Assembly: GCF_001411495.1 (NCBI RefSeq)
Contig: NZ_CP012983.1
Span: 1 to 64,000 of the forward strand
Reading direction: 5' to 3'
From: Burkholderia cepacia ATCC 25416
Lineage (GTDB): Bacteria > Pseudomonadota > Gammaproteobacteria > Burkholderiales > Burkholderiaceae
Length of the DNA stretch: 64,000 nt
The translations under genes were made by a program, and so were the position numbers. The notes beneath the pieces were generated by a model. It was not told the DNA's origin and ran no database searches. It worked only from the letters and a program-made list of their open reading frames with translations. Shown here one piece after another: positions 1-17,645 of the stretch (within the stretch, counting starts at the first letter, position 1; each line of letters begins with the position of its first letter).

Positions 1-658
1 GATGCCCTCGTCCTGCTCGAAGCGCGAGCAGGTGTCGACGCATACGCGCTCGCCCGGCCCCAGGTGCGTGAGCCCGACGATCTCGATTTCCTCGAGCTGC
101 AGATCCTCGACCGTGTCGCTGCAGATCGACACGAGCTGCGTGGCCTGCCCGACCTGCGTCGGCGTGAGCAGCACGCCTTCGGGGCCGCGCTGCAGCACGT
201 TCAGCGTCACTTCGGCATCCTCCAGGTCGGCGACGACGGTGATCAGCTCGCCCGCCGCGCGATCGGCGGCCGCCAGCAGGATCTCGAGCGGGATCTTGCT
301 CGGGTCCTGCAGGAAATTCGACGAGCAGCCACGGCGTGGACACCGACAGCTCGCACGCGCGCGTGAGCGTCGCCTCGCCCGTCACTTCGATGAACACGCC
401 GAGCTCGACGCCGTCCGGCACCGCGAAATCGACCGGCAGTCCGTCCTTCACGAGGACGATCTGCACCTGCTCGAGCAGCGCGGCATCGGCCGGATGCCGA
501 TCGACGACTGCGACCTTGCACGGCGCTCGGCGGCAGCCGCCGGCCTGCTCCGCATCCTTCACGACGAATGCGGACACGCCGACATGCAGCGCTTCCTCGG
601 TGATCTCGTCCGCGAGCTCGCCGATGTTGCGCAGGTCAATCCAGGAAAGCTTCTTCAA
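1..658 (-). pseudogene. 3-dehydroquinate synthase II-like protein (GriH-type), frameshifted and cut by the window edge
   Basis: The protein starts at a TTG (658) behind a clear AAGGAGA ribosome site and reads KKLSWIDLRNIGELADEI, the usual N-terminus of archaeal-type 3-dehydroquinate synthase II. Further on it has the family signature GERVCVDTCSRFEQDEG near the window edge. Family members cyclise a ketose-derived chain, either to dehydroquinate or, as GriH does, to 3-amino-4-hydroxybenzoate. The frame breaks at 314-316, where three A residues (plus strand) stand where two would keep one frame: upstream reads ...PWLLVEF, downstream resumes LQDPSKIPLEILL one base out of phase. Both halves are otherwise well conserved, so this is either a recent mutation or a sequencing error. 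The gene lies 48 bp downstream of a paralogue on the same strand. Confidence 0.72.
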
Positions 659-706
659 GGCCAATCTCCTTCGAAGGGGATAAAGCAGGTGAATGACAGG
701 GTGAAA

Positions 707-1771
707 CTAGCGACTGACGGCAACGGCCGAACGCGACGCGGCGGCCCGCATCCGGCAATCCACCCAGCCGGCACCCGGCTCGTAGCCGGCCAGCCGGACG
801 CCGGGCGCGACATCGGCGAGCCCGACGGCCGTGCCGCCGTCGGTCCGGAACCGCACCGCGCGGTCGCCGCGCAGCACGACACGCGTGCTCGTGCCGGATG
901 CGCTGCGCGTGTGCAACGCGACGAGCGGCGCGGATTCGATCCGCACGCGGCCGACCACGATCGCGCGCGTGTCGCCCGCCGCGCCGACCGTCAGGATCCG
1001 CTCGCCCGAACGCAGCAGCGAAAGCTGGCGCGCGCGGTCGCCGCCGCAGAACACGAACGATTCGGCCGAGCCCGCGTCGATGCCGAACACGAGCGGCCGG
1101 CCCGGCGGGTGCGCGGCGCCGGCCGCGACGACGAGCAGCATGCTGGTCGCGCTCGCGCCGGCCAGCACGCACTCTTCGCCGTCGAGCTGCGAACAGCCGT
1201 CGATCACCGCATGCAGCCCGACGCCGAGCGGCTCGACGCGCTGCACCTCGAATGCCTTCAGCTTCAGCGGCTCGCGCGAGCGCAGCTCGCCGCACGCGGC
1301 CAGCACGCCGCGCAACGCGGCCGCATCGCGCGGTGCGAACGCGATGTCGACCGGCGACTGCGCATGCTTGCGCGCGAGGTAAGCCGCGCCGTGCGGATCG
1401 GCGAGCGACACGACGATGCGGCACGCGGCGTCGCGGACACCCTCGAGCAGGCGCTCGAGCGGCATCGTGGTCGCGAGCGCGTAGTCGAGCAGGACGAGCG
1501 CGTGCCGCGCGATCGCGGCGCGCGCGGCATCGAAATCGGCCGCGCCGTCGATCCTCACGTGAACGCCCGCGAGCGGCGCATGCGCATCGTCGACCAGCGT
1601 CGCGACGCCCGCCGTCGAAACGGTCAATAGCGCCGCCGCGCCGGCCGCGCACGTATCGCGACCGGCCTCGGCCACCACGACGCGGCGCGCGCCGGCCCTC
1701 GCCGCGTCGGCCGCGACGGCGCCTGCCTGCGCGCCGAGCGCGCGCAGGTCGATCCACGGATAGCGATGCAT
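707..1771 (-). CDS. Divergent 3-dehydroquinate synthase II family protein
   Basis: The product has 354 residues, with the ATG behind GAGGG. The N-terminus MHRYPWIDLRALGAQAG matches the start of the neighbouring DHQ-synthase-II-like gene, and the C-terminal half keeps the family outline (KAFEVQRVEPLGVG..., then GDTRAIVVGRVRIESAPL). The canonical VCVDTCS motif reads HAVIDGCSQLDGEECV here, and the following GSYSRG-type loop is GASATS, so the active-site region has changed. It sits between the canonical copy and the aldolase gene in one minus-strand run. It may have a different cyclisation activity or act as a partner of the canonical enzyme. Family membership is fairly certain; the reaction is inference. 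Confidence 0.75.
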   Translation of the reverse strand: MHRYPWIDLRALGAQAGAVAADAARAGARRVVVAEAGRDTCAAGAAALLTVSTAGVATLVDDAHAPLAGVHVRIDGAADFDAARAAIARHALVLLDYALATTMPLERLLEGVRDAACRIVVSLADPHGAAYLARKHAQSPVDIAFAPRDAAALRGVLAACGELRSREPLKLKAFEVQRVEPLGVGLHAVIDGCSQLDGEECVLAGASATSMLLVVAAGAAHPPGRPLVFGIDAGSAESFVFCGGDRARQLSLLRSGERILTVGAAGDTRAIVVGRVRIESAPLVALHTRSASGTSTRVVLRGDRAVRFRTDGGTAVGLADVAPGVRLAGYEPGAGWVDCRMRAAASRSAVAVSR

Positions 1772-1823
1772 GGAAACCCTCGATGGTCGAAAAAGACCGG
1801 GTACGACGGCCCGGCGCAGCGAA

Positions 1824-2624
1824 TCAGGCGGCCAGGTGCGCGGCGCGCCGCTCGACGCCGTGCACCGCGTCCGACAGGCGGCGGATCAGCGGGGCGGCCT
1901 TCGGCGCGGCGAACACGTTGCGGCCGGCCGCGATGCCGAGCGCGCCCGCGTTCATCACCCGCGACGTGAACGCGACGAACTCGTCTTCGGGCAGCTTCGC
2001 GCCGCCCGCGACCAGCACCGGCAGCGACGAACCGGCGATGATGTCGGCCATGCTCGCGGCGTCGCCGCTGTACGGCAGCTTGACGATGTCGGCGCCGAGA
2101 TCCGCCGCGACGTTCGCCGCATGGGCGATCAGTTCGGCCTGCGGACGATCGCCGAGGCCGGGGCCGCGCGGATAGATCATCGCGAGCAGCGGCAGCGACC
2201 AGCGCGCGCATTCGGTCGCGATGCGGCTCAGGTCGAGCAGCTGCTGGGATTCCGTTTTCGAGCCGAGATTCACGTGCACGCTGACCGCGTCCGCGCCGCT
2301 CGCCAGCGCGTCCTCGACGCTCGCGAACAGCGTCTTCGCGTTCGCGTCCTCCGCGTAGCGCGTGCAACCGTTCAGGTGCACGACGAGCGCGAGATCGCTC
2401 AGCACGTCGGGCGCCAGGAAGCGCGCGCGGCCCCGATGCACGACGATCGCGTCGCCGCCGTGCGCGGCGATGTCGCCAACCAGTTGCCGCAACTGCTGCG
2501 GATGGGCGATCGGCCCGTCCGCGAGCGAATGATCGAGCGGCACCATCAGACACTTGCCCGACGCGGCACGCACCACCCGCCGCATCCTGAGCGCCTTGCC
2601 AGAAACCGATAGAAGAGCGTTCAT
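1824..2624 (-). CDS. Class I aldolase, 2-amino-3,7-dideoxyheptulosonate synthase/GriI-like
   Basis: The product has 266 residues, starting at the ATG at 2624 behind GAGGAA. It has the DeoC/LacD-type class I aldolase pattern: MVPLDHSLADGP near residue 25, HLNGCTRYAEDAN, SVHVNLGSKTESQ, LPLLAMIYPRGPG, and the likely Schiff-base lysine in ADIVKLPYSGD followed by LPVLVAGGAKLPEDEF. Relatives are archaeal ADH synthase and GriI, which joins aspartate semialdehyde to a C3 phosphate on the way to 3-amino-4-hydroxybenzoate. Pairing with DHQ-synthase-II genes is the diagnostic context of both pathways. It is the first gene of the minus-strand operon and diverges from the luciferase-like gene. Confidence 0.85.
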   Translation of the reverse strand: MNALLSVSGKALRMRRVVRAASGKCLMVPLDHSLADGPIAHPQQLRQLVGDIAAHGGDAIVVHRGRARFLAPDVLSDLALVVHLNGCTRYAEDANAKTLFASVEDALASGADAVSVHVNLGSKTESQQLLDLSRIATECARWSLPLLAMIYPRGPGLGDRPQAELIAHAANVAADLGADIVKLPYSGDAASMADIIAGSSLPVLVAGGAKLPEDEFVAFTSRVMNAGALGIAAGRNVFAAPKAAPLIRRLSDAVHGVERRAAHLAA

Positions 2625-2752
2625 CCGTGATTCCTCGCCAGAAATGGAAAGGCCGGCCCGTTCGACTTCAGCCTGCCCCCGGGGTGCCCGCTTGCGGGCG
2701 GAACTGGAGCGACAACCGAGCAACGCTTGCAGCAAATCTTGCGACGTGTAAG

Positions 2753-2798
2753 ACTTGCATAGACCCAATCATCCTATGATTGGATCATCCTTGCAAGT
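2753..2798. promoter_or_regulatory. Divergent promoter region with nested inverted repeats
   Basis: The 273-bp gap between the divergent aldolase and luciferase-like genes contains the perfect palindrome CCAATCATCCTATGATTGG (8-bp arms, 3-bp centre, 2765-2783). It is nested inside a second inverted repeat, ACTTGCA (2753-2759) and TGCAAGT (2792-2798). The position suggests an operator controlling both arms of the cluster. The bound protein is unknown; the LysR regulator at 6013 is the nearest candidate. Confidence 0.55.
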
Positions 2799-2897
2799 GC
2801 CTTGCGAGCGATCCCGTTTCCCGACCGGGGGACGCATTCGTCGCGGCATCGCTTCCCCTTTGCAGACAACGGCAGCACATCAACCTGTGAGGTGTCT

Positions 2898-3956
2898 ATG
2901 AAGTTCGGCGTGTCCTTCCTGCCCGATACCGGCCCGGCCGACCGCCCGGCGGCCGACTATTACGCCCAGGCGCTGAAGCTCAGCGCGCTGTCCGAGCGGC
3001 TCGGCTACACGTACGTAAAGATGACCGAGCACTACCTGAAGCCGTACGGCGGCTACAGCCCGTCGCCGCTGATGTTCCTCGCGGCCGTGGCCGCGCAGAC
3101 GAAGTCGATCCGCCTGATGACGGGCGGCATCCAGGCGTCGTTCCATCATCCGATCCAGCTCGCGGCCGAAGCCGCGCAGCTCGACGCGATCTCGAACGGG
3201 CGGCTCGAGCTGGGCTTCGCGCGCGCCTTCCTGCCGTACGAATTCGATGCATTCGGCATCGATCTCGACTCGAGCAAGACGCGCTTCCAGCAGACGATCG
3301 ACGCGACGGTGCGGCTTCTCGCCGAGGAATCGGCCAGCGAGGACACCCCGTTCTTCCGCTACCGCGACGCGCAATCGCTGCCGCGCCCGACGCAGCAGCC
3401 GCGCCCGCCGGTGTGGGTCGCGGCGCTGCTCACGCCGTCCAGCTTCGAGTGGATCGGCGAACGCGGCTTCAACCTGCTGATGGCCGCGCCGCCGCGCAAG
3501 GCCGCGCTCGCGAAGACACAGGAGATGGTGGCGCTCTATCGCGACACGTTCGAGCGCCATCACGGCCACACCGGCCGCAAGCCGCAGGTCGCGATCAGCA
3601 TCCCGCTGATGATCGGCACGTCGGACGCGCATGCGCTGGCACTCGCGGAGCCGCGCCTGCGCCATCACTGGCGCAATTTCGCGGAAGCGGCGAAGTCGTG
3701 GGAGCAGGTGCAGTCGCCGGCCTACCAGGGCTACAACGAAGCGATGAAGAACAAGATGGGCGGCATGGACACGGCCGACCTCGACGCAACCGCCGTGCTC
3801 GGCACGCCCGACACCGTGCGCCAGCGCATTCGCGCGCTCGAGGCCGACCTCGGCCTCGACGCGATCCTGTGGCACATCGACTACGGCGCGCAGCCGTACG
3901 AACTGATGAGCAACAACCTGGAGGTGTTCGCCCGCGACGTGCTGCCGGGACTATGA
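2898..3956 (+). CDS. Luciferase-like (LLM class) flavin-dependent monooxygenase
   Basis: The product has 352 residues, starting at the ATG at 2898 (MKFGVSFLPD) behind a GAGGTG ribosome site; an upstream in-frame ATG at 2802 has no such support. It shows the bacterial luciferase-like TIM-barrel pattern: N-terminal KFGVSFLP, ERLGYTYVKMTEHY, an SPLMFLAAVAAQTKSIRLMTGG strand-helix, DAISNGRLELGFARAF, then RPPVWVAALLTPSSFEWIGERGFNLL. Such enzymes use reduced flavin supplied by a partner reductase, here probably the gene at 5290. It opens the plus-strand arm of the cluster, 4 bp before the next gene. The substrate is unknown; an aminohydroxybenzoate derivative is the contextual guess. Confidence 0.85.
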   Translation: MKFGVSFLPDTGPADRPAADYYAQALKLSALSERLGYTYVKMTEHYLKPYGGYSPSPLMFLAAVAAQTKSIRLMTGGIQASFHHPIQLAAEAAQLDAISNGRLELGFARAFLPYEFDAFGIDLDSSKTRFQQTIDATVRLLAEESASEDTPFFRYRDAQSLPRPTQQPRPPVWVAALLTPSSFEWIGERGFNLLMAAPPRKAALAKTQEMVALYRDTFERHHGHTGRKPQVAISIPLMIGTSDAHALALAEPRLRHHWRNFAEAAKSWEQVQSPAYQGYNEAMKNKMGGMDTADLDATAVLGTPDTVRQRIRALEADLGLDAILWHIDYGAQPYELMSNNLEVFARDVLPGL

Positions 3957-3960
3957 CGCC

Positions 3961-5223
3961 ATGCCGATTCCTTCCGGATCCACCACGGGCTCGCCCATGA
4001 CACCGTCCCTGTCACTCGACACGATCGTCGTCGGCGCCGGCATCGGCGGCCTCGCCGCCGCGCTCGCGCTGCGGCGCGCCGGCCATCGGGTCACCGTCCT
4101 CGAGCAGAGCCGGGCGTTTCGGGAAGTCGGCGCCGGGCTGCAGGTCGTGCCGAACGCGACGCGCGCGCTGCGTACGCTCGGCGTGCTCGACCGGCAGCGG
4201 CTGGCCGCCGTCGCCCCGATCGCGACGATCCGCCGCCGCTGGCAGGACGGCAGCCTGCTCGGTTCCTTCCCGCTCGGCGACGATGTCGAAGCCGAGTTCA
4301 ACGCGCCGTACTGGAACGCGCATCGCGCCGACCTGCATGCCGCGCTGCTCGATGCCGTGCGCGACCCGTACACGGCCGGCCCGCCGGTCCCCGTCCTCGG
4401 CGGCATCGCGGTGCGCGGCCTCGACGCATACGGGCCGGACGGCGCGACGCTCGTCGATGCGGCGGGCACGCGCTGGCGCGCGGATCTCGTCGTCGCGGCC
4501 GACGGCATTCATTCGACGCTGCGCCACGCGCTGCTCGGCGACGACGCGCCGCACTACAGCGGCGACGACGCGTATCGCGCACTGATCGACGCCGATGCGA
4601 TCGACCCGCGCTCGCCCGTGTTCGAGATCGTCCGGGAACCGCAGGTGACGATCTGGCTCGGGCCCGGCCGGCACGCGATCCATTACTGGGTGCGCGACCG
4701 CCGGCTGCTGAACCTCGTCGTGATCGTGCCGGGCGACGGCAGCACGCGCGAATCGTGGAGCAGCAAGGGCGACCGCGCGACGCTCGAGGCCGAGCTCGCC
4801 GGCTGGGATCCGCGCCTCGTCGGGCTGATCCGCTGCGCGTCGGACCTGAGCCGCTGGTCGCTGCACGACCGGCAGCCGCTCACGCGCTGGGTGTGGGACA
4901 GCGTGTGCCTGCTCGGCGACGCATGCCACCCGATGCTGCCGTACCAGTCGCAAGGCGCCGCGCAGGCGCTCGAGGACGCGGTCGTGCTCGGCCGGTGCGT
5001 GACCGGGCTCGCGTCGAAGGACGCGCTCGGCGCCGCGCTGGTCGAATACCAGCGCCTGCGGATCGACCGCAGCGCGCGGATCCAGCTTGCATCGGCCGGC
5101 AACGGCGGCGTGTTCCACCTGCCCGACGGCCCCGAACAGCAGGCGCGCGACGCCGAGCTCAAGTCGCGCCGCGCCGACTTCAAGTCCTATCACTGGACCT
5201 GGGCCGACGCGTACCAGCTTTGA
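3961..5223 (+). CDS. FAD-dependent aromatic monooxygenase, salicylate hydroxylase-like
   Basis: The product has 420 residues if started at 3961, only 4 bp after the previous stop; the ATG at 3997 (MTPSLSLDTIVVGAG) is an equally good start. It is a class A flavoprotein hydroxylase: dinucleotide motif VVGAGIGGLAAALALRRAG, the DG motif DLVVAADGIHSTLR near residue 180, and the second FAD motif CLLGDACHPMLPYQSQGAAQALEDA near residue 320. Members hydroxylate phenolic acids with NAD(P)H and oxygen, sometimes with decarboxylation. In this cluster it could tailor the ring made by the aldolase and DHQ-synthase-II pair. The substrate is inferred, not shown. Confidence 0.85.
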   Translation: MPIPSGSTTGSPMTPSLSLDTIVVGAGIGGLAAALALRRAGHRVTVLEQSRAFREVGAGLQVVPNATRALRTLGVLDRQRLAAVAPIATIRRRWQDGSLLGSFPLGDDVEAEFNAPYWNAHRADLHAALLDAVRDPYTAGPPVPVLGGIAVRGLDAYGPDGATLVDAAGTRWRADLVVAADGIHSTLRHALLGDDAPHYSGDDAYRALIDADAIDPRSPVFEIVREPQVTIWLGPGRHAIHYWVRDRRLLNLVVIVPGDGSTRESWSSKGDRATLEAELAGWDPRLVGLIRCASDLSRWSLHDRQPLTRWVWDSVCLLGDACHPMLPYQSQGAAQALEDAVVLGRCVTGLASKDALGAALVEYQRLRIDRSARIQLASAGNGGVFHLPDGPEQQARDAELKSRRADFKSYHWTWADAYQL

Positions 5224-5228
5224 CGCCC

Positions 5229-5268
5229 GCCCCGGTGCCGCGCGGCGCGACCCGCGCGGCACCGGGGC
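5229..5268 (+). other. Very stable intercistronic hairpin
   Basis: A perfect 16-bp GC-rich stem (5229-5244 with 5253-5268, beginning GCCCCGGTGCCGCGCG) with an 8-base loop lies in the 66-bp gap between the FAD monooxygenase and the flavin reductase. There is no T tract, so it is more likely an mRNA-stabilising or processing hairpin than a simple intrinsic terminator. Confidence 0.6.
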
Positions 5269-5289
5269 TCCTCGCGACAGGACCGCATC

Positions 5290-5814
5290 ATGACGAACAC
5301 CGTGGACATTGCGCAGCAACTGAAACAGGCGATGCGCGGCGTGGCCGCCACCGTCACGATCGTGACGACCGGCGGCGACGGCGCCGCCGCCGCACCGTGC
5401 GCGCTGACCGCCAGCTCGTTCACGTCGGTCGCGCTCGATCCGCCGACCGTGCTGGTGTGCATCAACCGGCGCGCGAGCATTCACGCGTCGATCACCGGCC
5501 GCCGGCGCTTCTGCGTGAACGCGCTGCGAAGCTGCCACGTGCCGCTCGCGCTCGCGTGCAGCACGACGGGCTCCGACGCGCGTTTCGCGCACGACGCATG
5601 GCGTACCGACGCGGCAACAGGTCTGCCCTATCTCGAGAACGCGCAGACATCGTTCTTCTGCGACACGCTCGAACAGGTCGAGGTCGGCTCGCATTCGATT
5701 CTGGTCGGGCGGGTCACGCGCGTCGCGATGTCCGCCGACGTGAACCCGCTGATGTACGTGAACGGCGCGTTCGCCGCCGTCCGCTCGCTGCCGTCCGATG
5801 CCGGCGGCGGGTAA
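5290..5814 (+). CDS. Flavin reductase family protein (FMN-binding split barrel)
   Basis: The product has 174 residues. It has the short flavin reductase (HpaC-like) fold: RGVAATVTIVTTGG, then CALTASSFTSVALDPPTVLVCINRRASIHASI, FCVNALR, and a C-terminal VEVGSHSILVGRVTRV strand with the conserved histidine. Such enzymes reduce free FMN or FAD with NAD(P)H and pass it to a separate oxygenase. The luciferase-like protein at 2898 needs reduced flavin, so the two are likely partners. It is separated from the FAD monooxygenase by a strong hairpin, which could set its relative expression. Confidence 0.88.
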   Translation: MTNTVDIAQQLKQAMRGVAATVTIVTTGGDGAAAAPCALTASSFTSVALDPPTVLVCINRRASIHASITGRRRFCVNALRSCHVPLALACSTTGSDARFAHDAWRTDAATGLPYLENAQTSFFCDTLEQVEVGSHSILVGRVTRVAMSADVNPLMYVNGAFAAVRSLPSDAGGG

Positions 5815-6012
5815 CGGGCGCACGTGCCGTTGTTTCGAGCATTCGTTCGCGGGGTTCGCACCGGGCCCGTTTGCTCGAGGCAACACGCCCCCCACCGATG
5901 CGTGCGTCACGCGTGATGCCGCACGCAATCGTTGCGTGCGCTGCAGTCACGCTGCGCGCGCACATCACGCACTACCATTGCGCCGCATGCACGCGATGAA
6001 ACGGAGAAGCCG

Positions 6013-6936
6013 ATGGCACCCGACCTGAACCTGCTGATTTCGCTCGATGCGCTGCTCGAAGAGGGCAGCGTCGTCGGCGCCGCACGCCGCATGAACCTCA
6101 GCCCGCCCGCGATGAGCCGCACGCTCGCGCGCATCCGCGAAACGGTCGGCGACCCGATCTTCGTGCAGGCCGGCCGCAAGATGGTGCCGACGCCGCGTGC
6201 GCTCGAACTGCGCGGCGTCGTCCGCGAAACCGTGGAGCGCGCATCGCAGTTGCTCGCGCCGTCCGCGGAAATCGATCTCGGCACCCTCGACAAGCAGTTC
6301 AACGTGCGTGCGAACGACGTCTTCGTCGGCCTGCACAGCAGCCGGCTGCTCGAGGAGATGGCGCGCGGGATGCCGCGCGCGATGCTGCGCTTCATGCCCG
6401 AGGAAGACGACATCGACGACGACGCATTGCGCAGCGGCCGCATCGACCTCTTCATCAGCGCGTCGCGCCGCCTGGGGCCGGAGATTCGCGTGCAGCCGCT
6501 GTTCACGACGACCTTCGTCGGCCTCGCTCGCCACGACCACCCGATCTTCGACGACGACATCACGCCCGAGCGCTTCGCGCGCTGGCCGCATATCGGCGTC
6601 TCGCGGCGCGGCAAGTCGGCGGGGCCGATCGACGACGCGCTCGCCGCACGCGGGCTCGCGCGCCACGTGCTGCTCGTCGTGCCGACGCCGTATGCGGCGA
6701 TCTTCGCGCTGCAGGCGTCGGACCTGATCCTGCCGCTGCCCGAGCATCTCGCGCGCGGCGCGGTGCGGGCCGGGCTCGGCGTGCGCACGTTCGAACTGCC
6801 GGTGCCGCTCGAAACCGTGCTGATCACGCAGGCGTGGCATCCGCGCTTCCAGAGCGACCCTGCGCACCAGTGGTTGCGGCGTGTCGTGCGCGGGCTGTGC
6901 ACCGGCCAGCCGGCGCTGCGTGCGGCGCATGCATGA
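6013..6936 (+). CDS. LysR family transcriptional regulator
   Basis: The product has 308 residues, starting at the ATG at 6013 behind CGGAGAAG. The N-terminal winged helix reads LNLLISLDALLEEGSVVGAARRMNLSPPAMSRTLARIRETVGDPIFVQAGRKMVPTPRA, followed by a periplasmic-binding-like effector domain. The DPIFVQAGR pattern resembles the NodD/NahR/SyrM branch, which often senses aromatic compounds. It lies between the aromatic biosynthesis arm and the FUSC efflux operon, on the same strand as both, about 100 bp before the pump. It is the obvious candidate regulator of either or both; which one is not decided by the sequence. Confidence 0.9.
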   Translation: MAPDLNLLISLDALLEEGSVVGAARRMNLSPPAMSRTLARIRETVGDPIFVQAGRKMVPTPRALELRGVVRETVERASQLLAPSAEIDLGTLDKQFNVRANDVFVGLHSSRLLEEMARGMPRAMLRFMPEEDDIDDDALRSGRIDLFISASRRLGPEIRVQPLFTTTFVGLARHDHPIFDDDITPERFARWPHIGVSRRGKSAGPIDDALAARGLARHVLLVVPTPYAAIFALQASDLILPLPEHLARGAVRAGLGVRTFELPVPLETVLITQAWHPRFQSDPAHQWLRRVVRGLCTGQPALRAAHA

Positions 6937-7036
6937 CGGATGCGTTGCACGCACTCGTCGAGTGCAAAGACGTCACTGTTCGGCATGCATGGCGCGACCG
7001 TAGACTGGCTTCGTCCTTTCTCATGGAGCGACTGCA

Positions 7037-9139
7037 GTGCATGACGCAGCAGATCAGACGCGCGCCGTCGCGGCGCCGCCCCGCCGCCTGACTCGCGCGG
7101 CCGCGGCGCTGATCGCGCGCATCGACATCTTCACGCCGCGCGGCGCGTATGTCGCGCGCTCGGTCATCGCCGCCGCGCTCGCGCTCGGCGTCGCGTACCT
7201 GCTCGAACTGGAAACGCCGTATTCGGCCGCGTCGACGGTGCTGCTCGTGATCAATCCCGTCCAGGGCGCGGTGATCGGCAAGGGCGTGTGGCGCGTGGTC
7301 GGCACGATCGCGGGGATGGTCGTCGCGTTCGTGCTGATGGGCTGCTTCGCGCAGCAGCCGCTGCTGTTCATCCTCGGCTTCGCGTTCTGGCTCGGCGTCT
7401 GCGTCGCGGGCATGACGCTGCTGCGGCACTTCCGCGCGTCGGGCACCGTCGTGGCCGGCTACACGATCGGCCTGGCGACCTACGGCGCGATGCAACATCC
7501 CGAGCTGACCTTCGAACACGTGATCGGGCGCGGCTCGACGGTCGCGATCGGCGTGCTGTGCCTGAGCCTCGTGTCGATGCTGCTCGGCACGCGCGACGTG
7601 CACGCGAAACTCGACGCGCTGGTGACGCGCGTCACCGCCGACGTCGCGCGGGTCATCGCCGCGCAGCGCAACGGCCTCGCGGCGGCACCGGCCGACGACA
7701 AGCGGCACGCGCTGTTCGCCGGCATCTACGGCATCGACGATCTGCTCGCGCTCGGCAAGGCCGAATCGGAGGATCTCGCGCAACGCGCGGCCGCCGTGCG
7801 GCACGGGATGGCATCGCTGTTCGGCGCGCTCGCGGGCGGCATGCCGCCGCTGCCGGCCGACAGCCCCGGCGCGCGCGCGGTCGCATCGCTTCAGCCGCGT
7901 CTCGCGGCCGCGTGGCAGGCCGCCGCCGACGCATTGGGCGACGGCCCCGGCGGCGCGACGCACGCGCATGCGCTGCTCGGCGACGCGCGCGAACGCCTGC
8001 GCGACGCCCTCGACGGCATCGCGCTCGGCGATCCGCGCGACGATGCGGCGTTGCTGATCGCCGGCGAGCGGCTGATCGAACAGATCGACGACTACCGCGC
8101 GGCGCTCGACGGGCTCGTCGAATTGCAGCGCCCGCGCCCGGGCTACCGGCCCGCGCGGGTGCGCTTTCACCGCGACACGGGCGCGGCCCTGCGCAACGGC
8201 GTGCGCGCCGCGTGCGCGATCGTGATCTCGGGCGCATTCTGGCTCGCGACCGGCTGGAACCAGGGCGACATGATGCTGCTCGTCGTCGCGCCGTACTGCG
8301 CGCTGCTCGCGACCGCCGGCAACCCGGCCGCCGGCGCGCAGGCGTTCATCAAGGGCACGGTGCTCGCCGTGCCGGCCGCGTTCGTGTGCGCGTTCGGCAT
8401 CCTGCCGCGCATCGAAGGCTTTCCGCTGCTCGTCGTCGCGCTCGCGCTGTTCTGGATGCCCGGCATCTACGCGACGAGCGTGCCGAAGACCGCGCTCGCG
8501 GGGCTCGCCTATCTCGTCGCGTTCAACACGCTGACCGGCGCGACCAATCCGTTCCGCCCCGACGTCGCGCTGTTCCTGAACCAGTCGGTCGCGTGGGTGC
8601 TCGCCACGTTCCTCACGCTGCTCACGTTCCGGTTGATCCTGCCGGGCAACCTGGCCACCGACGCCACGCGGCTGCGCCGCACGATCCGCGACGACACGCT
8701 CGCGCTCGTGGCCGGCCGGCGCGTCACGGCGGCGGGCTGGCAGCAGCGCCAGCAGCACCGCATCGCGCAGCTCGGCGCGCTGCTCGCCGGCCAGCCGGTC
8801 GCGATGACGCAGGCGAGCATCGAGGCGCTCGCGGCGCTGCACGTCGGCAAGGAGCTGCTGCGGATCCGCCGCGGCGCCGCGCGCGACGGCTTGCCCGACC
8901 CCGCGCGACGATGCGTGCGGGCGGGGCTCGCGGGCCTCGCGCGGCACGCGGCCGCCCCGCCGCGCGCGGCCCGGCATGCACGGCGCGCCGCGCACGCGCT
9001 GGCCGGCCTCGCCGCCGCGCAGCCGGGCACCACCGAACTGAAGTGGCTGATGGCCGCGTTCGCCGACGTCTACGTGCTGCTGCACACGTACGCCGCCTAT
9101 TTCACCGCCGTTCCGGAGCGCGCCCGCGATGCTCAGTGA
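7037..9139 (+). CDS. FUSC family inner-membrane efflux protein (AaeB-like)
   Basis: The product has 700 residues, starting at a GTG (7037) with GGAG 8 bases upstream. It has the duplicated FUSC/AaeB architecture: an N-terminal membrane block (about residues 35-180, including AASTVLLVINPVQGAVIGKGVWRVVGTIAG), a soluble middle, a second membrane block (about 385-540, including MMLLVVAPYCALLATAGNP and FWMPGIYATSVPKTALAGLAYLVAF) and a soluble tail. E. coli AaeB exports p-hydroxybenzoate and related acids with AaeA. Its reading frame overlaps the DUF1656 gene by 11 bp. With the next three genes it forms a complete tripartite pump. Confidence 0.9.
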   Translation: MHDAADQTRAVAAPPRRLTRAAAALIARIDIFTPRGAYVARSVIAAALALGVAYLLELETPYSAASTVLLVINPVQGAVIGKGVWRVVGTIAGMVVAFVLMGCFAQQPLLFILGFAFWLGVCVAGMTLLRHFRASGTVVAGYTIGLATYGAMQHPELTFEHVIGRGSTVAIGVLCLSLVSMLLGTRDVHAKLDALVTRVTADVARVIAAQRNGLAAAPADDKRHALFAGIYGIDDLLALGKAESEDLAQRAAAVRHGMASLFGALAGGMPPLPADSPGARAVASLQPRLAAAWQAAADALGDGPGGATHAHALLGDARERLRDALDGIALGDPRDDAALLIAGERLIEQIDDYRAALDGLVELQRPRPGYRPARVRFHRDTGAALRNGVRAACAIVISGAFWLATGWNQGDMMLLVVAPYCALLATAGNPAAGAQAFIKGTVLAVPAAFVCAFGILPRIEGFPLLVVALALFWMPGIYATSVPKTALAGLAYLVAFNTLTGATNPFRPDVALFLNQSVAWVLATFLTLLTFRLILPGNLATDATRLRRTIRDDTLALVAGRRVTAAGWQQRQQHRIAQLGALLAGQPVAMTQASIEALAALHVGKELLRIRRGAARDGLPDPARRCVRAGLAGLARHAAAPPRAARHARRAAHALAGLAAAQPGTTELKWLMAAFADVYVLLHTYAAYFTAVPERARDAQ

Positions 9140-9323
9140 ATTCCCGCTGGCCGGCATCTACCTGCCGCCCTTTTTCGTCTATGCGTGCGCGACCGTGCCG
9201 CTCTATCTGGCCGTGCGCGCGCTGCTCGCAAGGCTCGGCGTGCTGCGCCGCGTGTGGCATCCGGCGCTGTTCGAGTTCGCGATTTCGCTCGTGCTGGTCG
9301 CCACGCTGATCCTCTATTTCTAG
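9129..9323 (+). CDS. DUF1656 small membrane protein (AaeX-like)
   Basis: The product has 64 residues, with two membrane segments (LAGIYLPPFFVYACATVPLYL and LFEFAISLVLVATLILYF) joined by a basic loop. This is the DUF1656/AaeX pattern that accompanies FUSC pumps. It overlaps the FUSC gene by 11 bp and is followed after 24 bp by the membrane fusion protein, so the genes are translationally linked. Its biochemical role in the pump is not known for the family. Confidence 0.88.
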   Translation: MLSEFPLAGIYLPPFFVYACATVPLYLAVRALLARLGVLRRVWHPALFEFAISLVLVATLILYF

Positions 9324-9347
9324 CCTCCCGTCGGAACGTATCGCGTC

Positions 9348-10262
9348 ATGTCGCTCAAACCCCTCACCCGCTCCCTGCTGACGCTCGCCACCGTGGCCGT
9401 GGCGATCGTGCTGGTCGCCGCGCTCTGGCATGCATACGTCCTCGCGCCGTGGACGCGCGACGCGCGTGTCAGCGCGCACGTCGTGCGGATCGCGCCCGAA
9501 GTGTCGGGCACCGTCGTCGAAGTCGCGGTGGTCGACAACCAGCGCGTCGCGAAAGGCGACGTGCTGTACCGGATCGATCCGCAGCGCTTCGCGCTGGCGG
9601 TGGAACAGGCCGAGGCGCAGGTCGCCGCGACCGCCGAGTCGATGCGCCAGAAGCGCGACGAAGCGCAGCGGCGCACCGGCCTCGACGATCTCGTGCCGCG
9701 GGAGGACATCCAGCGCTCGAGCCGCGCGGTGGCGATCGCGCAGGCCGAGCACCGCAAGGCGCTGGCCGCGCTCGACGTCGCGAAGCTCGACCTCGAACGC
9801 ACGACGCTGCGCTCGCCGGTCGACGGTTACGTGACGCAGCTGCGCCTGCGTCACGGCGACTACGCGGTCGAAGGCAAGCCCGGCATCTCGGTGCTCGACG
9901 CGCACAGCTTCTGGATCACCGGCTATTTCGAGGAGACCAAGCTGCGCCGCGTCGCGACGGGTGCACCCGCGACGATCCGGCTGATGGGCTTCGATCCGCT
10001 GCTGAGCGGGCACGTGACGAGCATCGGCCGCGGCATCGCCGACGAAAACGGCACGCTCGACGAACTCGGCCTGCCGGCCGTCAACCCGACCTTCAGCTGG
10101 GTGCGGCTCGCGCAGCGCATTCCGGTGCGCATCGAGATCGACCGGGTGCCGGCCGGCGTGCTGCTGGCGGCCGGCATGACGTGCAGCGTCGAAGTCGGCG
10201 AACGCGGGCGCGAGCGCACGCCGCGCGGCCGGCTCGCGTCGTGGCTGCACGCGTGGATGTGA
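9348..10262 (+). CDS. HlyD family membrane fusion protein (AaeA-like)
   Basis: The product has 304 residues. A single N-terminal membrane anchor (about residues 10-30, LLTLATVAVAIVLVAALW) is followed by APWTRDARVSAHVVRIAPEVSGTVVEV, a biotinyl-lipoyl half-motif typical of EmrA/AaeA proteins. A coiled-coil hairpin follows, then the second lipoyl half (LDLERTTLRSPVDGYVTQLRLRHGDY) and a beta-barrel domain. It links the FUSC inner-membrane protein to the outer-membrane channel encoded next. Confidence 0.9.
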   Translation: MSLKPLTRSLLTLATVAVAIVLVAALWHAYVLAPWTRDARVSAHVVRIAPEVSGTVVEVAVVDNQRVAKGDVLYRIDPQRFALAVEQAEAQVAATAESMRQKRDEAQRRTGLDDLVPREDIQRSSRAVAIAQAEHRKALAALDVAKLDLERTTLRSPVDGYVTQLRLRHGDYAVEGKPGISVLDAHSFWITGYFEETKLRRVATGAPATIRLMGFDPLLSGHVTSIGRGIADENGTLDELGLPAVNPTFSWVRLAQRIPVRIEIDRVPAGVLLAAGMTCSVEVGERGRERTPRGRLASWLHAWM

Positions 10263-10273
10263 CGGAGGCGACG

Positions 10274-11749
10274 ATGCGATGCCCGTTCCCTCCGGTGCGC
10301 GCGACGTGCCGCGTGCGCGCCTTCGTCGCGGCCTGCGCGTGCGCGCTCGCCGCGTGCACGACGGTCGGCCCCGATTACGTGGCGCCGCAGCCCGCGCACC
10401 CGCCCGGCTGGAGCGCGCCGCGCGACACGGTGACGGCCGACCCCGCGCAGTTGCAGGACTGGTGGCGCGCGTTCGGCGATGCGCAGCTCGATGCGCTGGT
10501 CGAGCAGGCGATCGCGCACAACCAGGATCTCGCGATCGCGCGCCAGCGCTTGCTGCAGGCGCGCGCCGAACGCGACCAGATCGCGAGCCGACTCGGCCCG
10601 ACCGTCACCGCGGGCGGGAACGCCGATGCGCTGCGCTCGTCGCGCGCGCTCGAATGGCCGCCCGGGATCGGCCAGTCGCGCACCTACCGGCTCGGCTTCG
10701 ATGCGTCGTGGGAACTCGACCTGTTCGGCGGCACGCGACGCGCGGTCGAATCCGCCGATGCGCAGATCGACGCGCTCGACGACGATCGCCACGCGATCCT
10801 CGTGAGCCTGCTGGCCGAGCTTGCATCCGATTACGCGGAACTGCGCGCGACCCAGGAGCGGCTGCGGATCGCAACGGACAACGTCGCGAGCCTCGACGCC
10901 ACGCGGCAGCTGACCGAGCGCTCGAACCGGCGCGGCCTCGGCACGTCGTTCGCGGTCGCGCAGGCGCGTGCCGAACTGCAGCTCGCGCAGGCGGCGGTGC
11001 CGCCGCTGCAACAGGACGTCGCGCGCCTCGCCCACGCGATCGGCGTGCTCGTCGGCGGTTTTCCGGAAACGCTGCGCGACTCGCTGAGCGCGCCCGGCGC
11101 GACCCTGCCGGTCGCGCCAGCGCTGCCCGTCACGCTGCCGTCGGACGTGATCCGCGAGCGCCCCGACATTCGCGCCGCCGAACGGCGGCTGGCCGCCGCG
11201 ACCGCCCAGATCGGCGTCGCGCGCGCCGAGCAGTTTCCGCATTTCGCGATTCCGCTGAGCCTCGGCACGACGGCGAGCCTCGTGCAGGACCTGTTCTCGG
11301 GCGCGAGCGTCGCATGGTCGGTCGCGCTCGACGGCACGCAGACGCTGTACGACGGCGGCCGCGCGAAAGCCGGCGTCGACGCCGCGCGCGCGGCCGCCGA
11401 GGCGGCCCGGCTCGCCTACGAGCAGCGCATCCGCGGCGCGTTTCGCGATGTCGAGGACGCGCTGGTGGCGATCGGCGCCGCGCGCGACCAGCAAGCCATG
11501 CTCGCCGCGGCAGTCGACAGCAGCCAGGATGCGCAGTCGCGCGCGACGCGGCTGTATCGCAACGGCCTCGGCGAATACCTGTCGGTGCTCACGGCGCAGC
11601 GCGCGACGTACCGCGCCCGCGATGCGCTCGCGCTCAGCCGGCTCGCCCAGGTGCAGGGCGCGATCGCGCTCTACAAGTCGCTCGGCGTCGGCTGGCGCGC
11701 CGCGCCGCCGGTCGCGCAGGCCGCCGCGGCGCAAGCGAGCGCGCATTGA
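10274..11749 (+). CDS. NodT/OprM-type outer-membrane efflux lipoprotein
   Basis: The product has 491 residues, starting at the ATG at 10274, 11 bp after the fusion protein. A signal peptide ends in the lipobox CALAACTTVGPDYVAP, and two outer-membrane efflux repeats follow (QARAERDQIASRLGPTV..., then IRERPDIRAAERRLAAATAQIGVARAEQFPHF). The C-terminus ends in the usual QGAIALYKSLGVGW. It supplies the trans-periplasmic exit duct of the FUSC pump and completes the operon that starts at 7037. Confidence 0.9.
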   Translation: MRCPFPPVRATCRVRAFVAACACALAACTTVGPDYVAPQPAHPPGWSAPRDTVTADPAQLQDWWRAFGDAQLDALVEQAIAHNQDLAIARQRLLQARAERDQIASRLGPTVTAGGNADALRSSRALEWPPGIGQSRTYRLGFDASWELDLFGGTRRAVESADAQIDALDDDRHAILVSLLAELASDYAELRATQERLRIATDNVASLDATRQLTERSNRRGLGTSFAVAQARAELQLAQAAVPPLQQDVARLAHAIGVLVGGFPETLRDSLSAPGATLPVAPALPVTLPSDVIRERPDIRAAERRLAAATAQIGVARAEQFPHFAIPLSLGTTASLVQDLFSGASVAWSVALDGTQTLYDGGRAKAGVDAARAAAEAARLAYEQRIRGAFRDVEDALVAIGAARDQQAMLAAAVDSSQDAQSRATRLYRNGLGEYLSVLTAQRATYRARDALALSRLAQVQGAIALYKSLGVGWRAAPPVAQAAAAQASAH

Positions 11750-11806
11750 ATGCCCACGCACGGCCACCCGACGCTTCGGCGTCGCTCATCCAACGGAGAA
11801 CCCTCG

Positions 11807-12247
11807 ATGTCCGCTCTCAATCCGAATGATTTCGCGTTACACGACATCCATCTCTTTCCGGTCTGCGTGTTTCGCCCCGAACACGCGACACCGGGCTACG
11901 CACCGCGCTGGGAAGGCGAGATCGACACGCTGATGCGCCACGGCGAACCGTTCGTGATCGTCTACGTCGAGCTCGACACCGACGAGAGCCACGACGACCG
12001 CAAGCATCGCGCGGTCTGGCTCAAGCAGAACAAGGTCGAGCTGGGCGCCGTCTGCAAGGCGCTCGTCAGCGTCGAACCCGATCCCGACCGGCGCGCGGAA
12101 GTGGCCGCGCAGGGCGAGGTCGCCGTCAAGGCATTCGGGATTCCGCATCACGCGGTGGCGTCGTTCGGGCAGGCCGTCTCGCTCGCCGCCCGGCTCACGC
12201 GGCAGCATTCGGGCAACGACGCGCTGCAAACCGGACAACAGGCATGA
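11807..12247 (+). CDS. Conserved hypothetical protein
   Basis: The product has 146 residues, starting at 11807 behind CGGAGAA. It is soluble, with no signal peptide. It is acidic in the middle (FVIVYVELDTDESHDDRKHRAVWLK), followed by a helical tail (VAVKAFGIPHHAVASFGQAVSLAARL). It follows the pump operon after 57 bp on the same strand, so it may be co-transcribed. The family is not recognised, and no catalytic motif is evident. Confidence 0.65.
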   Translation: MSALNPNDFALHDIHLFPVCVFRPEHATPGYAPRWEGEIDTLMRHGEPFVIVYVELDTDESHDDRKHRAVWLKQNKVELGAVCKALVSVEPDPDRRAEVAAQGEVAVKAFGIPHHAVASFGQAVSLAARLTRQHSGNDALQTGQQA

Positions 12248-14501: not shown

Positions 14502-17500
14502 ATGTCCCAATTCTTCATCCGGCGCCCGGTCTTCGCGTGGGTGATCGCCCTCTTCATCATCCTGCTGGGCCTGATCGCCATCCCCGAACTGCCGGTTGCG
14601 CGCTATCCGTCGGTCGCGCCGCCGACCGTCACCATTACCGCCACCTACCCGGGCGCCACGCCGCAGACGATGACCGACAGCGTGCTGAGCCTCATCGAGC
14701 GCGAGCTGTCCGGCGTCCGCAACCTGCTGTACTTCGAATCGGCGTCGGATACGTCCGGCCAGGCGAAGATCACCGCGACCTTCAAGCCCGGCACCGATTC
14801 GGCGATGGCGCAGGTCGAGGTGCAGAACAAGCTCAAGTCGGTCGAGCCGCGCCTGCCGCCCGTCGTGCGGCAAAACGGCGTGATCGTCGAGTCTGCCTCC
14901 ACCGGCTTCCTGTTGTTCGTCGGCCTGAAGTCGGACAGCGGCCGCTACGACGAAAACGCGCTGGCCGACTACATGGCGCGCAACGTCGTCGAGGACCTGC
15001 GCCGTGTCGAAGGCGTCGGCAAGGTGCAGCTGTTCGGCTCCGAACAGGCGATGCGCATCTGGGTCGATCCGCAGAAGCTGATCACCTACGGCCTGTCGAT
15101 GAACGACCTGACGACGGCCGTCGCCCAGCAGAACGTGCAGATCGCCCCGGGCAGCCTCGGTGCGGCACCCGCGCTGCCGGGCCAGCGCGTGACGGTACCG
15201 CTCACCGCGCAAGGCCAGCTCACGTCGCCCGAGCAGTTCGCGAAGATCGTGCTGCGCGCGAACGCGAACGGCTCGAAGGTCGTGCTCGGCGACGTCGCGC
15301 GGGTCGAACTCGGCCCGCAGTCGTTCACCTTCGTCAACAGCGAGAACGGCAAACCCGCGACCTTCGCCGGCGTGCAGCTGGCGCCGGGCGCCAACGCGGT
15401 GAAGACCGCCGAGGCCGTGCGCGAGCAACTGGACATGATCGCCAAGACGATGCCGTCCGGCATGACCTACTCGATCCCGTTCGATACCGCGCCGTTCGTG
15501 AAGATCTCGATCGAGAAGGTGATTCACACGCTGATCGAAGCGATGGTGCTCGTGTTCCTGGTGATGTACCTGTTCCTGCAGAACGTGCGCTACACGCTGA
15601 TCCCGGCGATCGTCGCGCCGGTGGCGATGCTCGGCACCTTCACGGTCATGCTGATGACGGGCTTCTCGATCAACGTGCTGACGATGTTCGGCATGGTGCT
15701 CGCGATCGGCATCATCGTCGACGATGCGATCGTCGTCGTGGAGAACGTCGAACGCCTGATGGTGGAAGAAGGCCTGTCGCCGAAGGACGCGACGATCAAG
15801 GCGATGAAGGAAATCACCGGCGCGATCATCGGCATCACGCTGGTGCTGACGGCCGTGTTCCTGCCGATGGCGATGTCGAGCGGTTCGGTCGGCGTGATCT
15901 ATCAGCAGTTCACGATGTCGATGGCCGTGTCGATCATGTTCTCGGCCCTGCTCGCGCTGACGCTGACGCCGGCCCTGTGCGCGACGATGCTCAAGCCGGT
16001 CGAGCATGGCCACCACGAGAAGCGCGGCTTCTTCGGCTGGTTCAACCGCCGCTTCGACCGCATGACGAGCTGGTACGAAACGCGCGTCGGCAAGCTGGTC
16101 GGCCGCACGGGCCGCGTGATGCTGCTGTTCGTCGCGATCTCCACCGCGCTGGTGTTCGGCTTCCGCATGCTGCCGTCGTCGTTCCTGCCCGAGGAAGACC
16201 AGGGCTACTTCATGACCGGCTTCCTGCTCCCGTCGGATTCGACCGTCGAGCGCACGGGCGACGTGGTCAAGACCCTCGAGAAGCATCTCGCGTCGCGTCC
16301 GGGCATCGAGTCGAGCATCTCCATCATCGGCTACGGCTTCTCGGGCCTCGGCTCCAACGCGGCGCTGAACTACGCGGTGCTCAAGGACTGGGACAAGCGC
16401 GACGGGGCAAACGCAATGGACGAAGCGATGCGCGCGCAGGCCGCGATGGGCGGCGTGACGGAAGGCACGGTCATGAGCCTGTTGCCGCCGGCGATCGACG
16501 GGCTGGGCACCAGCTCGGGCTTCACGATGCGCCTGCAGGATCGCGCGAACCAGGGCTACGCGGCACTCAAGGCGGCTGAAGCCAAGCTGCTCGAACTGGC
16601 CGCGCAAAGCAAGGTGGTGACCGGCGTCTATCCGGACAGCCTGCCGGCCGGCACGAGCGTGAAGCTGGACATCGACCGCGACAAGGCCGAAGCGCTCGGC
16701 GTGTCGTTCACGACCATCAGCGACACGCTGTCGGCCGCGATGGGTTCGACCTACGTGAACGACTTCCCGAACGCGGGCCGCATGCAGCAGGTGATCATCC
16801 AGGCGGATGCGCCGGCCCGCATGCAGATCGAGAACGTGATGAAGCTCTACGTGCGCAACGCGACCGGCGGCATGGTGCCGCTGTCCGAAGTGGTGCGTCC
16901 GGTCTGGTCGGAAACCCCGCTGCAGCTGGTGCGCTTCCAGGGTTACCCGTCCGCACGGATCTCCGGCGGCTCGGCCCCCGGCTACTCCAGCGGCGCGGCG
17001 ATGGCCGAGATGGAGCATCTGGCCGCGCAGTTGCCGCCGGGCTTCACGGTCGCGTGGACCGGCCAGTCGCTGCAGGAGCGTGAGTCGGCTTCGCAGGCGC
17101 CGATGCTGATGGCGCTGTCGATGGTCGTCGTGTTCCTGGTGCTCGCGGCGCTCTACGAGAGCTGGGCGATTCCGCTGTCGGTGATGCTGGTGGTGCCGCT
17201 CGGCCTGATCGGCGCGCTCGCCGCGGTGATGTTGCGCGGGATGCCGAACGACGTGTTCTTCAAGGTCGGGATGATCACCGTGATCGGCCTGTCGGCGAAG
17301 AACGCGATCCTGATCGTGGAAGTCGCGAAGCAGTTGCGCGAGGAAGGCATGGGGCTGATCGAGTCGGCCGTGCAGGCATCCAAGCTGCGGCTGCGCCCGA
17401 TCCTGATGACCTCGCTCGCGTTCGGCCTCGGCGTCGTGCCACTGATGATCGCGACCGGCGCCAGCGCCGAGACGCAGCACGCGATCGGCACCGGCGTGTT

Positions 17501-17645
17501 CGGCGGCATGGTGACCGCCACCGTGCTGGCCATTTTCTTCGTTCCGGTCTTCTTCGTGTTCGTGATGAGCATCCAGGAACGCATCTCGGCATGGCGCGCA
17601 TCCGGCAAGAAGCCCGCCACCGTGACCCACGAACAAGAAGGTTGA
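14502..17645 (+). CDS. RND multidrug efflux transporter, HAE1/AcrB family
   Basis: The product has 1047 residues, the usual length of AcrB/MexB proteins. The N-terminus MSQFFIRRPVFAWVIALFIILLGL is standard. The proton-relay aspartates lie in MVLAIGIIVDDAIVVVENVER, and the relay lysine is in GLSAKNAILIVEVAKQ near the C-terminus. Two large periplasmic loops and twelve membrane segments are in the expected places. It should act as a proton-driven trimeric pump for hydrophobic or amphiphilic compounds. It follows the adaptor by 20 bp and precedes the channel gene by 4 bp. Confidence 0.96.
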   Translation: MSQFFIRRPVFAWVIALFIILLGLIAIPELPVARYPSVAPPTVTITATYPGATPQTMTDSVLSLIERELSGVRNLLYFESASDTSGQAKITATFKPGTDSAMAQVEVQNKLKSVEPRLPPVVRQNGVIVESASTGFLLFVGLKSDSGRYDENALADYMARNVVEDLRRVEGVGKVQLFGSEQAMRIWVDPQKLITYGLSMNDLTTAVAQQNVQIAPGSLGAAPALPGQRVTVPLTAQGQLTSPEQFAKIVLRANANGSKVVLGDVARVELGPQSFTFVNSENGKPATFAGVQLAPGANAVKTAEAVREQLDMIAKTMPSGMTYSIPFDTAPFVKISIEKVIHTLIEAMVLVFLVMYLFLQNVRYTLIPAIVAPVAMLGTFTVMLMTGFSINVLTMFGMVLAIGIIVDDAIVVVENVERLMVEEGLSPKDATIKAMKEITGAIIGITLVLTAVFLPMAMSSGSVGVIYQQFTMSMAVSIMFSALLALTLTPALCATMLKPVEHGHHEKRGFFGWFNRRFDRMTSWYETRVGKLVGRTGRVMLLFVAISTALVFGFRMLPSSFLPEEDQGYFMTGFLLPSDSTVERTGDVVKTLEKHLASRPGIESSISIIGYGFSGLGSNAALNYAVLKDWDKRDGANAMDEAMRAQAAMGGVTEGTVMSLLPPAIDGLGTSSGFTMRLQDRANQGYAALKAAEAKLLELAAQSKVVTGVYPDSLPAGTSVKLDIDRDKAEALGVSFTTISDTLSAAMGSTYVNDFPNAGRMQQVIIQADAPARMQIENVMKLYVRNATGGMVPLSEVVRPVWSETPLQLVRFQGYPSARISGGSAPGYSSGAAMAEMEHLAAQLPPGFTVAWTGQSLQERESASQAPMLMALSMVVVFLVLAALYESWAIPLSVMLVVPLGLIGALAAVMLRGMPNDVFFKVGMITVIGLSAKNAILIVEVAKQLREEGMGLIESAVQASKLRLRPILMTSLAFGLGVVPLMIATGASAETQHAIGTGVFGGMVTATVLAIFFVPVFFVFVMSIQERISAWRASGKKPATVTHEQEG

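Follow-up and report, generated by a model that had tools for sequence, protein, structure and literature searches.

We analysed the first 64,000 nucleotides (G000:C3:1-64000, hereafter the window) of contig C3 (1,196,214 bp) of Burkholderia cepacia ATCC 25416, whose 8.6-Mb genome is assembled in four contigs, and describe a block of 14 genes that probably directs synthesis, export and re-uptake of the siderophore cepabactin (BN-227). Start codons of the window genes were chosen by eye. On the minus strand the window begins with DHQS1, a cyclase of the GriH/dehydroquinate (DHQ)-synthase-II type (1..664, truncated by the window edge), its degenerate and fast-evolving paralogue DHQS2 (707..1771, 354 aa) and an aldolase of the DeoC/LacD family, recognised by profile matches as GriI/ADH-synthase type (1824..2624). 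Divergent from these, on the plus strand, lie genes for a luciferase-like flavin monooxygenase (LLM; 2898..3956, profile and structure-database sequence matches), a FAD monooxygenase (FMO; 3961..5223) and a flavin reductase (5290..5814, profile matches), which may supply reduced flavin to the LLM enzyme. The same strand continues with a LysR-type regulator (6013..6936), a FUSC inner-membrane exporter (7037..9139; PF04632, 472 bits), an AaeX-like small membrane protein of the DUF1656 family (9129..9323), an AaeA-like periplasmic adaptor of the HlyD type (9348..10262) and an outer-membrane efflux channel of the OEP family (10274..11749). Between the divergent operons lies a conserved palindrome, CCAATCATCCTATGATTGG (2765..2783), a candidate GntR operator. 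A sequence-only reading of this DNA had described an aldolase and two GriH/DHQ-synthase-II-like genes diverging from two oxygenases and a flavin reductase, followed on the plus strand by a LysR gene, a FUSC pump and an outer-membrane channel, and all of these lie where it had placed them.

The locus starts outside the window. Positions 1-8231 are repeated at the far end of C3 (L003:11771-20000) with 99.94% identity, zero mismatches and a few one-base gaps, which we take as a circular replicon with untrimmed ends. The DHQS1 frame, broken in the window copy, is intact at the other end of C3 (L003:11327-12433, minus strand, 368 residues). The break is therefore taken as an assembly artefact, and DHQS1 as a pseudogene was rejected. 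Since the overlapping ends differ by one-base gaps, other genes near the window start may also read falsely broken. On the circle DHQS1 is preceded by an O-methyltransferase (MT; L003:10227-11249, minus strand; PF00891 with dimerisation domain), a GntR/FCD regulator (L003:9486-10193, plus strand; profile match) and a TonB-dependent receptor of the FhuA/FoxA type (L003:6934-9183, minus strand). The complete order is thus TonB(-), GntR(+), MT(-), DHQS1(-), DHQS2(-) and aldolase(-), followed after the divergent promoters by LLM(+), FMO(+), reductase(+), LysR(+), FUSC(+), DUF1656(+), HlyD(+) and channel(+). The methyltransferase, the GntR regulator and the receptor lay beyond the view of the sequence-only reading, and it was these that pointed to a siderophore.

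We surveyed 65 Burkholderia species genomes, 398 genomes of the family and 369 of the class. DHQS2 had matches in 14 of the 65 Burkholderia genomes (E ≤ 0.001), ten of which, the host included, hold the DHQS1-DHQS2 pair. All nine other strong loci, which were fetched, contain the 14 genes in identical order. Together with the host, 10 of the 65 genomes thus share the synteny, and this order is not a matter of chance. The LLM enzyme is present in the same ten, and in the family it was found in 10 of 398 genomes at E ≤ 1e-60, all of them Burkholderia. The receptor is at least 81% identical in these ten (the frame in G009 is interrupted), the next best match after that in G057 being 62% in G027, and DHQS1 is 94-99% identical across the nine further loci. 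Block carriers identified by name are B. lata R-18110, B. paludis MSh1, B. stagnalis LMG 28156, Burkholderia sp. D-99 and sp. SRS-46; among the ten DHQS2 proteins found, one of which is the window's own, the names B. stabilis, B. ubonensis and sp. Bp9125 also occur. The five named carriers include no B. cenocepacia, B. vietnamiensis, B. gladioli or B. glumae, but the name scan was pattern-limited, may omit near records and concerns other strains than those assayed; its silence on other species carries little weight, since it recovered five of the ten loci.

The strain B. stagnalis YJ-2 is ∼99% identical to LMG 28156 on both flanks, but a 10.9-kb stretch that runs from within the flavin reductase gene to ∼0.6 kb past the receptor gene is missing, so that enzymes and receptor are gone from this site of the plas1 record, which the comparison covered. 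The LysR gene and all pump genes remain in YJ-2, next to a flavin reductase gene that is cut short (L005:12000-12437), and this truncation suggests a deletion. YJ-2 was considered as a counter-example and dropped: in the text available of a paper that contains 'BN-227' (PMC12195442), the term occurs only in one reference title, 'cepabactin' does not occur, and the siderophore discussed is ornibactin. The locus of G009 (L037) shows near identity to the host in aldolase, DHQS1 and LLM (dS 0.03-0.06) beside diverged MT and DHQS2 genes (dS 0.20 and 0.30), which suggests a possible mosaic formed by recombination between species. Four other Burkholderia genomes (L040, L041, L042 and L043) carry a lone, distant DHQS homologue (25-27% identical to DHQS2, 39-41% to DHQS1) that adjoins an aldolase of 33-34% identity; the 19.5-kb stretches retrieved around these homologues gave no match to the monooxygenases, the MT or the receptor.

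Aldolase and DHQS1 form a GriI/GriH-type pair. According to excerpts of two reports, GriI and GriH of Streptomyces convert aspartate semialdehyde and dihydroxyacetone phosphate (DHAP) into 3-amino-4-hydroxybenzoate (AHBA) by aldol condensation and cyclodehydration (PMC10179220, PMC6692506). The aldolase, with MJ0400 as nearest solved relative, scored 300 bits on NF005556 (PRK07226), above the cut-off of 241, and stayed below those of TIGR01949 (247 of 299 bits) and BagB/FevI (250 of 500). Intact DHQS1 was represented in scoring, trees and AlphaFold by P0005, the representative of its 99%-identical cluster. On the BagC/FevH AHBA-synthase model P0005 reached 374 bits, compared to 695 and 572 for proteins from Streptomyces anulatus and Allocatelliglobosispora that both carry the name AHBA synthase; all three stay below the 750 bits that the model requires. 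Quick trees were built from 119 of the 120 listed matches (the best 120 of 2253, one short match being dropped), and among these P0005 belongs to a 30-member clade (support 100) with proteins of Pseudomonas aeruginosa (77%), a metagenome and actinobacteria. This clade is separate from the one with both AHBA-labelled proteins (support 99 and 95), which serve as references by label only, in trees that were built without GriH itself.

A grixazone-type pathway had been proposed from the sequence alone. The condensation of a C4 and a C3 unit with subsequent cyclodehydration to a small amino- or aza-aromatic product is retained from that proposal, while AHBA as the product is disfavoured by the position of DHQS1 outside the AHBA-synthase clade. 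The pair itself would also suit a locus for the synthesis of AHBA and its further conversion into an aminophenolic that is exported, for instance an O-methylated, N-oxidised 2-aminohydroquinone, but we regard this as unlikely, as DHQS1 does not group with the proteins nearest the BagC/FevH model. The family names would further allow aldolase and DHQ synthase II to supply dehydroquinate or another shikimate-type intermediate next to unrelated neighbours. This is very improbable: P0005 exceeded the subfamily model NF002625 but fell below all five listed DHQ-synthase-II equivalog cut-offs, for which reason a canonical shikimate role of DHQS1 was rejected, and the synteny with two monooxygenases, a methyltransferase and a receptor is fixed.

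Sequence comparison found no solved structure credibly related to DHQS1 (best E 0.55). The AlphaFold model of P0005 (34 alignment rows) was good with a score of 87, but none of its 50 listed matches in the PDB exceeded a TM-score of 0.38 relative to the query, and most were partial barrels; pyridoxine-phosphate synthase among them was not counted as evidence. The model of DHQS2 (nine rows) was unusable, with a mean pLDDT of 37. DHQS2 retains 30 of the 79 residues that are invariant among 34 aligned family members, and its ratio of nonsynonymous to synonymous substitution rates (dN/dS; host versus six of the nine loci) is 0.25-0.67 compared to 0.05-0.14 for DHQS1; the other measured genes do not exceed 0.29, except for the FMO versus G009 (0.60). 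Since its frame is open in all ten loci, we think that DHQS2 has been retained, putatively as a non-catalytic or repurposed partner.

At E ≤ 1e-50 the FMO has six solved relatives, namely vanillate 1-hydroxylase, 4-hydroxybenzoate decarboxylase (4-hydroxybenzoate 1-hydroxylase), an unnamed FAD protein, tropone 2-monooxygenase and two sequences of the pyridine enzyme 6-hydroxynicotinate 3-monooxygenase. The decarboxylative vanillate and 4-hydroxybenzoate hydroxylases are the nearest; in the substrates of such decarboxylating enzymes the carboxylate stands para to a hydroxyl group. We therefore propose that the FMO is a decarboxylative para-hydroxylase. The solved proteins nearest to the MT are 6c5b, CalO6, DtpM and MmcR, and those nearest to the LLM enzyme, the putative N-hydroxylase, are 7bip and then PuwE.

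The pump consists of FUSC protein, HlyD adaptor, DUF1656 protein and outer-membrane channel and is thus of the tripartite FUSC type. Its earlier assignment to the AaeXAB class holds for this composition but not at the level of the individual proteins, all of which miss the respective cut-offs (AaeB 102.5 of 870 bits, AaeA 257 of 400, AaeX 29.5 of 82). In gene composition, and in its place beside a LysR gene, it resembles the FUSC pumps AaeXAB and FuaABC. Fusaric acid, the substrate after which the FUSC family is named, is 5-butylpicolinic acid according to an excerpt (PMC3517613) and therefore a 5-substituted picolinate like the intermediate proposed below. The view that one locus combines the start of a synthesis with a dedicated export pump is supported. 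In the host, the nine fetched loci and YJ-2 alike, the channel gene is followed by an open reading frame without Pfam match (11750-12247), and one more gene may thus belong to the pump operon. Further downstream the window contains a large RND-type efflux transporter frame (14502-17645) preceded by an adaptor-like one; this region lies mostly outside the stretches fetched elsewhere, and an adaptor match was seen at the edge of L036.

Over its full length the TonB receptor is related to FoxA (also labelled CntO), FetA (enantio-pyochelin) and FhuA (E ∼1e-146 to 1e-141), where the names FetA and FhuA follow in part from the entry labels. By family it would be a receptor of the hydroxamate-siderophore type, and this is the predicted class of its ligand.

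Receptor and enzymes may also share their regulation. The 14-base core ATCATCCNATSATT of the palindrome lies in the divergent promoter region of aldolase and LLM genes in 10 of 10 loci and occurs once in the 64-kb window, compared to 0.02 occurrences expected with one mismatch. A related site between the GntR and TonB genes has the exact core in six of the ten loci, and 16-18 of the 18 bases of the host site in all of them. The two sites suggest a putative GntR operator common to receptor and enzymes. Between the TonB and GntR genes a Fur-like site matches 13 of 19 positions of the Fur consensus; the window holds none as good, and the site is among the two best in eight of ten loci (not in L037 or L039). 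We treat dN/dS values, operator core and Fur-like match as supporting detail.

We take LMG 1222T and ATCC 25416T to be the same strain. Cepabactin (BN-227) has been described for decades as siderophore and antibiotic. In the accessible part of one study its structure is 1-hydroxy-5-methoxy-6-methyl-2(1H)-pyridinone, ATCC 25416T is named, and production is given for 12% of 65 strains (PMC9958762). Table 3 of another, seen as an excerpt, lists cepabactin (C7H9NO3) as detected in two of 14 extracts, those of B. cepacia R-24575 and B. cepacia LMG 1222T, and in none of the other 12 (PMC7912996), and it was undetected in B. pseudomallei according to the passage available of a third (PMC3383733). The host of the locus is thus a reported producer. 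Excerpts of reviews from 2017 and 2024 call the cepabactin genes unidentified (PMC5681537, PMC10826400), for which reason producers have so far not been predictable from genomes. Our search on cepabactin, which covered few subscription papers, listed no title on its biosynthesis genes; nor did we find literature linking Burkholderia, 3-dehydroquinate synthase II and a siderophore, or related work on hydroxymethylpicolinate precursors. The sequence-only reading had expected a metabolite system new to the genus; cepabactin is a known Burkholderia product, and the novelty would lie in its genes.

Enzyme families for a C7N backbone, decarboxylative hydroxylation, O-methylation and N-hydroxylation are all present in the block, decarboxylation and N-hydroxylation as judged from relatives, and this set matches the formula and substitution pattern of cepabactin, a link to genes that is drawn here. 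The atom balance is exact: when phosphoric acid and two waters are taken from the aldol adduct, C7H7NO3 is left. This formula has two aromatic closures, through carbon to AHBA and through nitrogen to 5-hydroxy-6-methylpicolinate; these are isomers, and the formula alone therefore cannot decide the product. By our own reasoning the picolinate already has the 5-oxygen, the 6-methyl group and the ring nitrogen of cepabactin, and exchange of its carboxylate in a hydroxylation plus one methylation and one N-oxidation was computed to give C7H9NO3. In the proposed pathway the aldolase would condense aspartate semialdehyde and DHAP to 2-amino-4,5-dihydroxy-6-oxoheptanoate 7-phosphate. DHQS1, perhaps with DHQS2, would form 5-hydroxy-6-methylpicolinate by closing the ring through nitrogen: the C2 amine would attack the C6 ketone, phosphate and two waters would be lost, and the departure of phosphate would leave the methyl group. 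The FMO would then exchange the carboxylate para to the hydroxyl for oxygen, yielding 5-hydroxy-6-methyl-2-pyridone, and, in either order, the MT would methylate O5 and the LLM enzyme with its reductase would hydroxylate the nitrogen to give 1-hydroxy-5-methoxy-6-methyl-2(1H)-pyridinone. The FUSC/HlyD/channel pump, encoded with the LysR gene, would export cepabactin, the FhuA/FoxA-type receptor would re-import the ferric chelate, and GntR, perhaps together with Fur, would regulate the block.

Host identity, an enzyme set complete by family, the receptor class and the all-or-none inheritance together favour cepabactin over the other readings, and we infer, for product, substrates and steps alike, that the locus is likely to be the cepabactin gene cluster. 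With somewhat less confidence we favour the wider proposal that a DHQ-synthase-II-family enzyme with a degenerate paralogue builds the pyridine ring of cepabactin. Aspartate semialdehyde and DHAP would be joined and cyclised through nitrogen into 5-hydroxy-6-methylpicolinate, in a redox-neutral route to a hydroxypyridine that is separate from those to vitamin B6, lysine and quinolinate, and members of this clade in Pseudomonas, in Streptomyces and in other actinobacteria would mark further hydroxypicolinate or hydroxypyridone products. The block could also make another, undescribed N-hydroxypyridone or hydroxamate siderophore, with the cepabactin genes elsewhere. All specific product calls are our deductions, and no search for rival loci in the genome was made, which leaves some room for this explanation, but it is improbable as the enzyme complement equals the needs of cepabactin and the host is a reported producer.

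Several observations weigh against the cepabactin assignment. Closure through nitrogen rather than carbon is not decidable from the DHQS1 sequence, and DHQS2 has no assigned role in the pathway. The best NCBIfam model for the FMO is the non-decarboxylating 3-hydroxybenzoate 6-monooxygenase (279 bits, below the cut-off of 459), tropone 2-monooxygenase is among its nearest solved relatives, and the enzyme would fit AHBA equally, since both acids have the para arrangement. For the LLM enzyme the best NCBIfam model, TIGR04020, and all others of the 25 models listed have cut-offs that it does not reach, and N-hydroxylation by this enzyme is a guess. G057 contains a 95% receptor match without an LLM or DHQS2 match, in an assembly that is 82% complete. 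The Fur-like site is weak, since L031 has an equal score elsewhere. In an excerpt of a study on B. cenocepacia, cepabactin is used via an unidentified receptor, and FhuA and FeuA are dispensable for this use (PMC10866019). Six of the 30 proteins in the DHQS1 clade carry the automated JGI name '3-amino-4-hydroxybenzoic acid synthase', a point in favour of AHBA as product that also means that automated names do not divide the clades. Among the 369 genomes of the class five further ones gave a match, and one of these, G192, supplies the best argument for AHBA: here an AHBA-clade synthase, 67% identical to the S. anulatus protein, adjoins an aldolase and a related FMO, so that an AHBA pathway can use the same type of FMO. 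On the other hand, a scan of the 14 block proteins found no aminophenol oxidase or AMP ligase, one would not expect a receptor of the hydroxamate type for an aminophenol, and AHBA as product would leave the cepabactin of the same strain without genes.

The block shares a DhnA-type aldolase and a GriH-type cyclodehydratase with the gri, nsp, bag and fev pathways, which lead through AHBA to grixazone, bagremycin and ferroverdin in Streptomyces. In contrast to these, its DHQS1 belongs to another clade, and degenerate paralogue, LLM monooxygenase, O-methyltransferase and TonB receptor are additional. Outside Burkholderia, DHQS1 and LLM homologues apparently occur together on a metagenome contig of 48,020 bp (P0006 and P0138) and on one contig of Streptomyces albus subsp. 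albus (130,088 bp; P0029 and P0183). Two Streptomyces plasmids carry the aldolase together with only one DHQS, among other genes, and show no match to other block proteins. On one of them, from Streptomyces sp. NBC_01431 (L059:1-16107), non-ribosomal peptide synthetase and diaminopropionate genes and a ring-hydroxylating oxygenase stand beside the aldolase and a DHQS that is 61.5% identical to DHQS1; this plasmid may use the same aromatic acid as a peptide synthetase unit. The P. aeruginosa protein mentioned above (P0007, 77% identical to DHQS1) represents 11 member sequences and hints at a possible related accessory cluster in that species. The gammaproteobacterial run in G192 (L067:4152-14155) comprises aldolase, AHBA-clade synthase, decarboxylative-type FMO, two AMP-binding proteins, an MFS protein, a nitroreductase and an amidohydrolase.

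Contig C4 of the host genome (209,807 bp) is longer than plasmid records of 203-204 kb, perhaps due to an untrimmed overlap here too. Matches to GH28 polygalacturonase fall on this contig. Three samples of C4 (3.7, 19.9 and 19.9 kb) align end to end, at 99.8-100% identity, with the ATCC 25416 plasmid records NZ_CP007745 and NZ_CP034556 and with B. cepacia NZ_CP022081; NZ_CP023519 matches likewise, apart from the second sample, of which 60% is covered up to the end of that record. The plasmid DNA partly recurs in other species, e.g. in B. arboris with 98.9% identity over 98% of the second sample.

If the cepabactin assignment is true, the locus would be a genomic predictor of cepabactin producers, the gene set would be open to mutation in the type strain of the species, and a candidate receptor for cepabactin uptake would be at hand. 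The proposed ring closure would be a new way to pyridine from two central metabolites, and GriI/GriH-like pairs would in turn not be automatically readable as 3-amino-4-hydroxybenzoate pathways.

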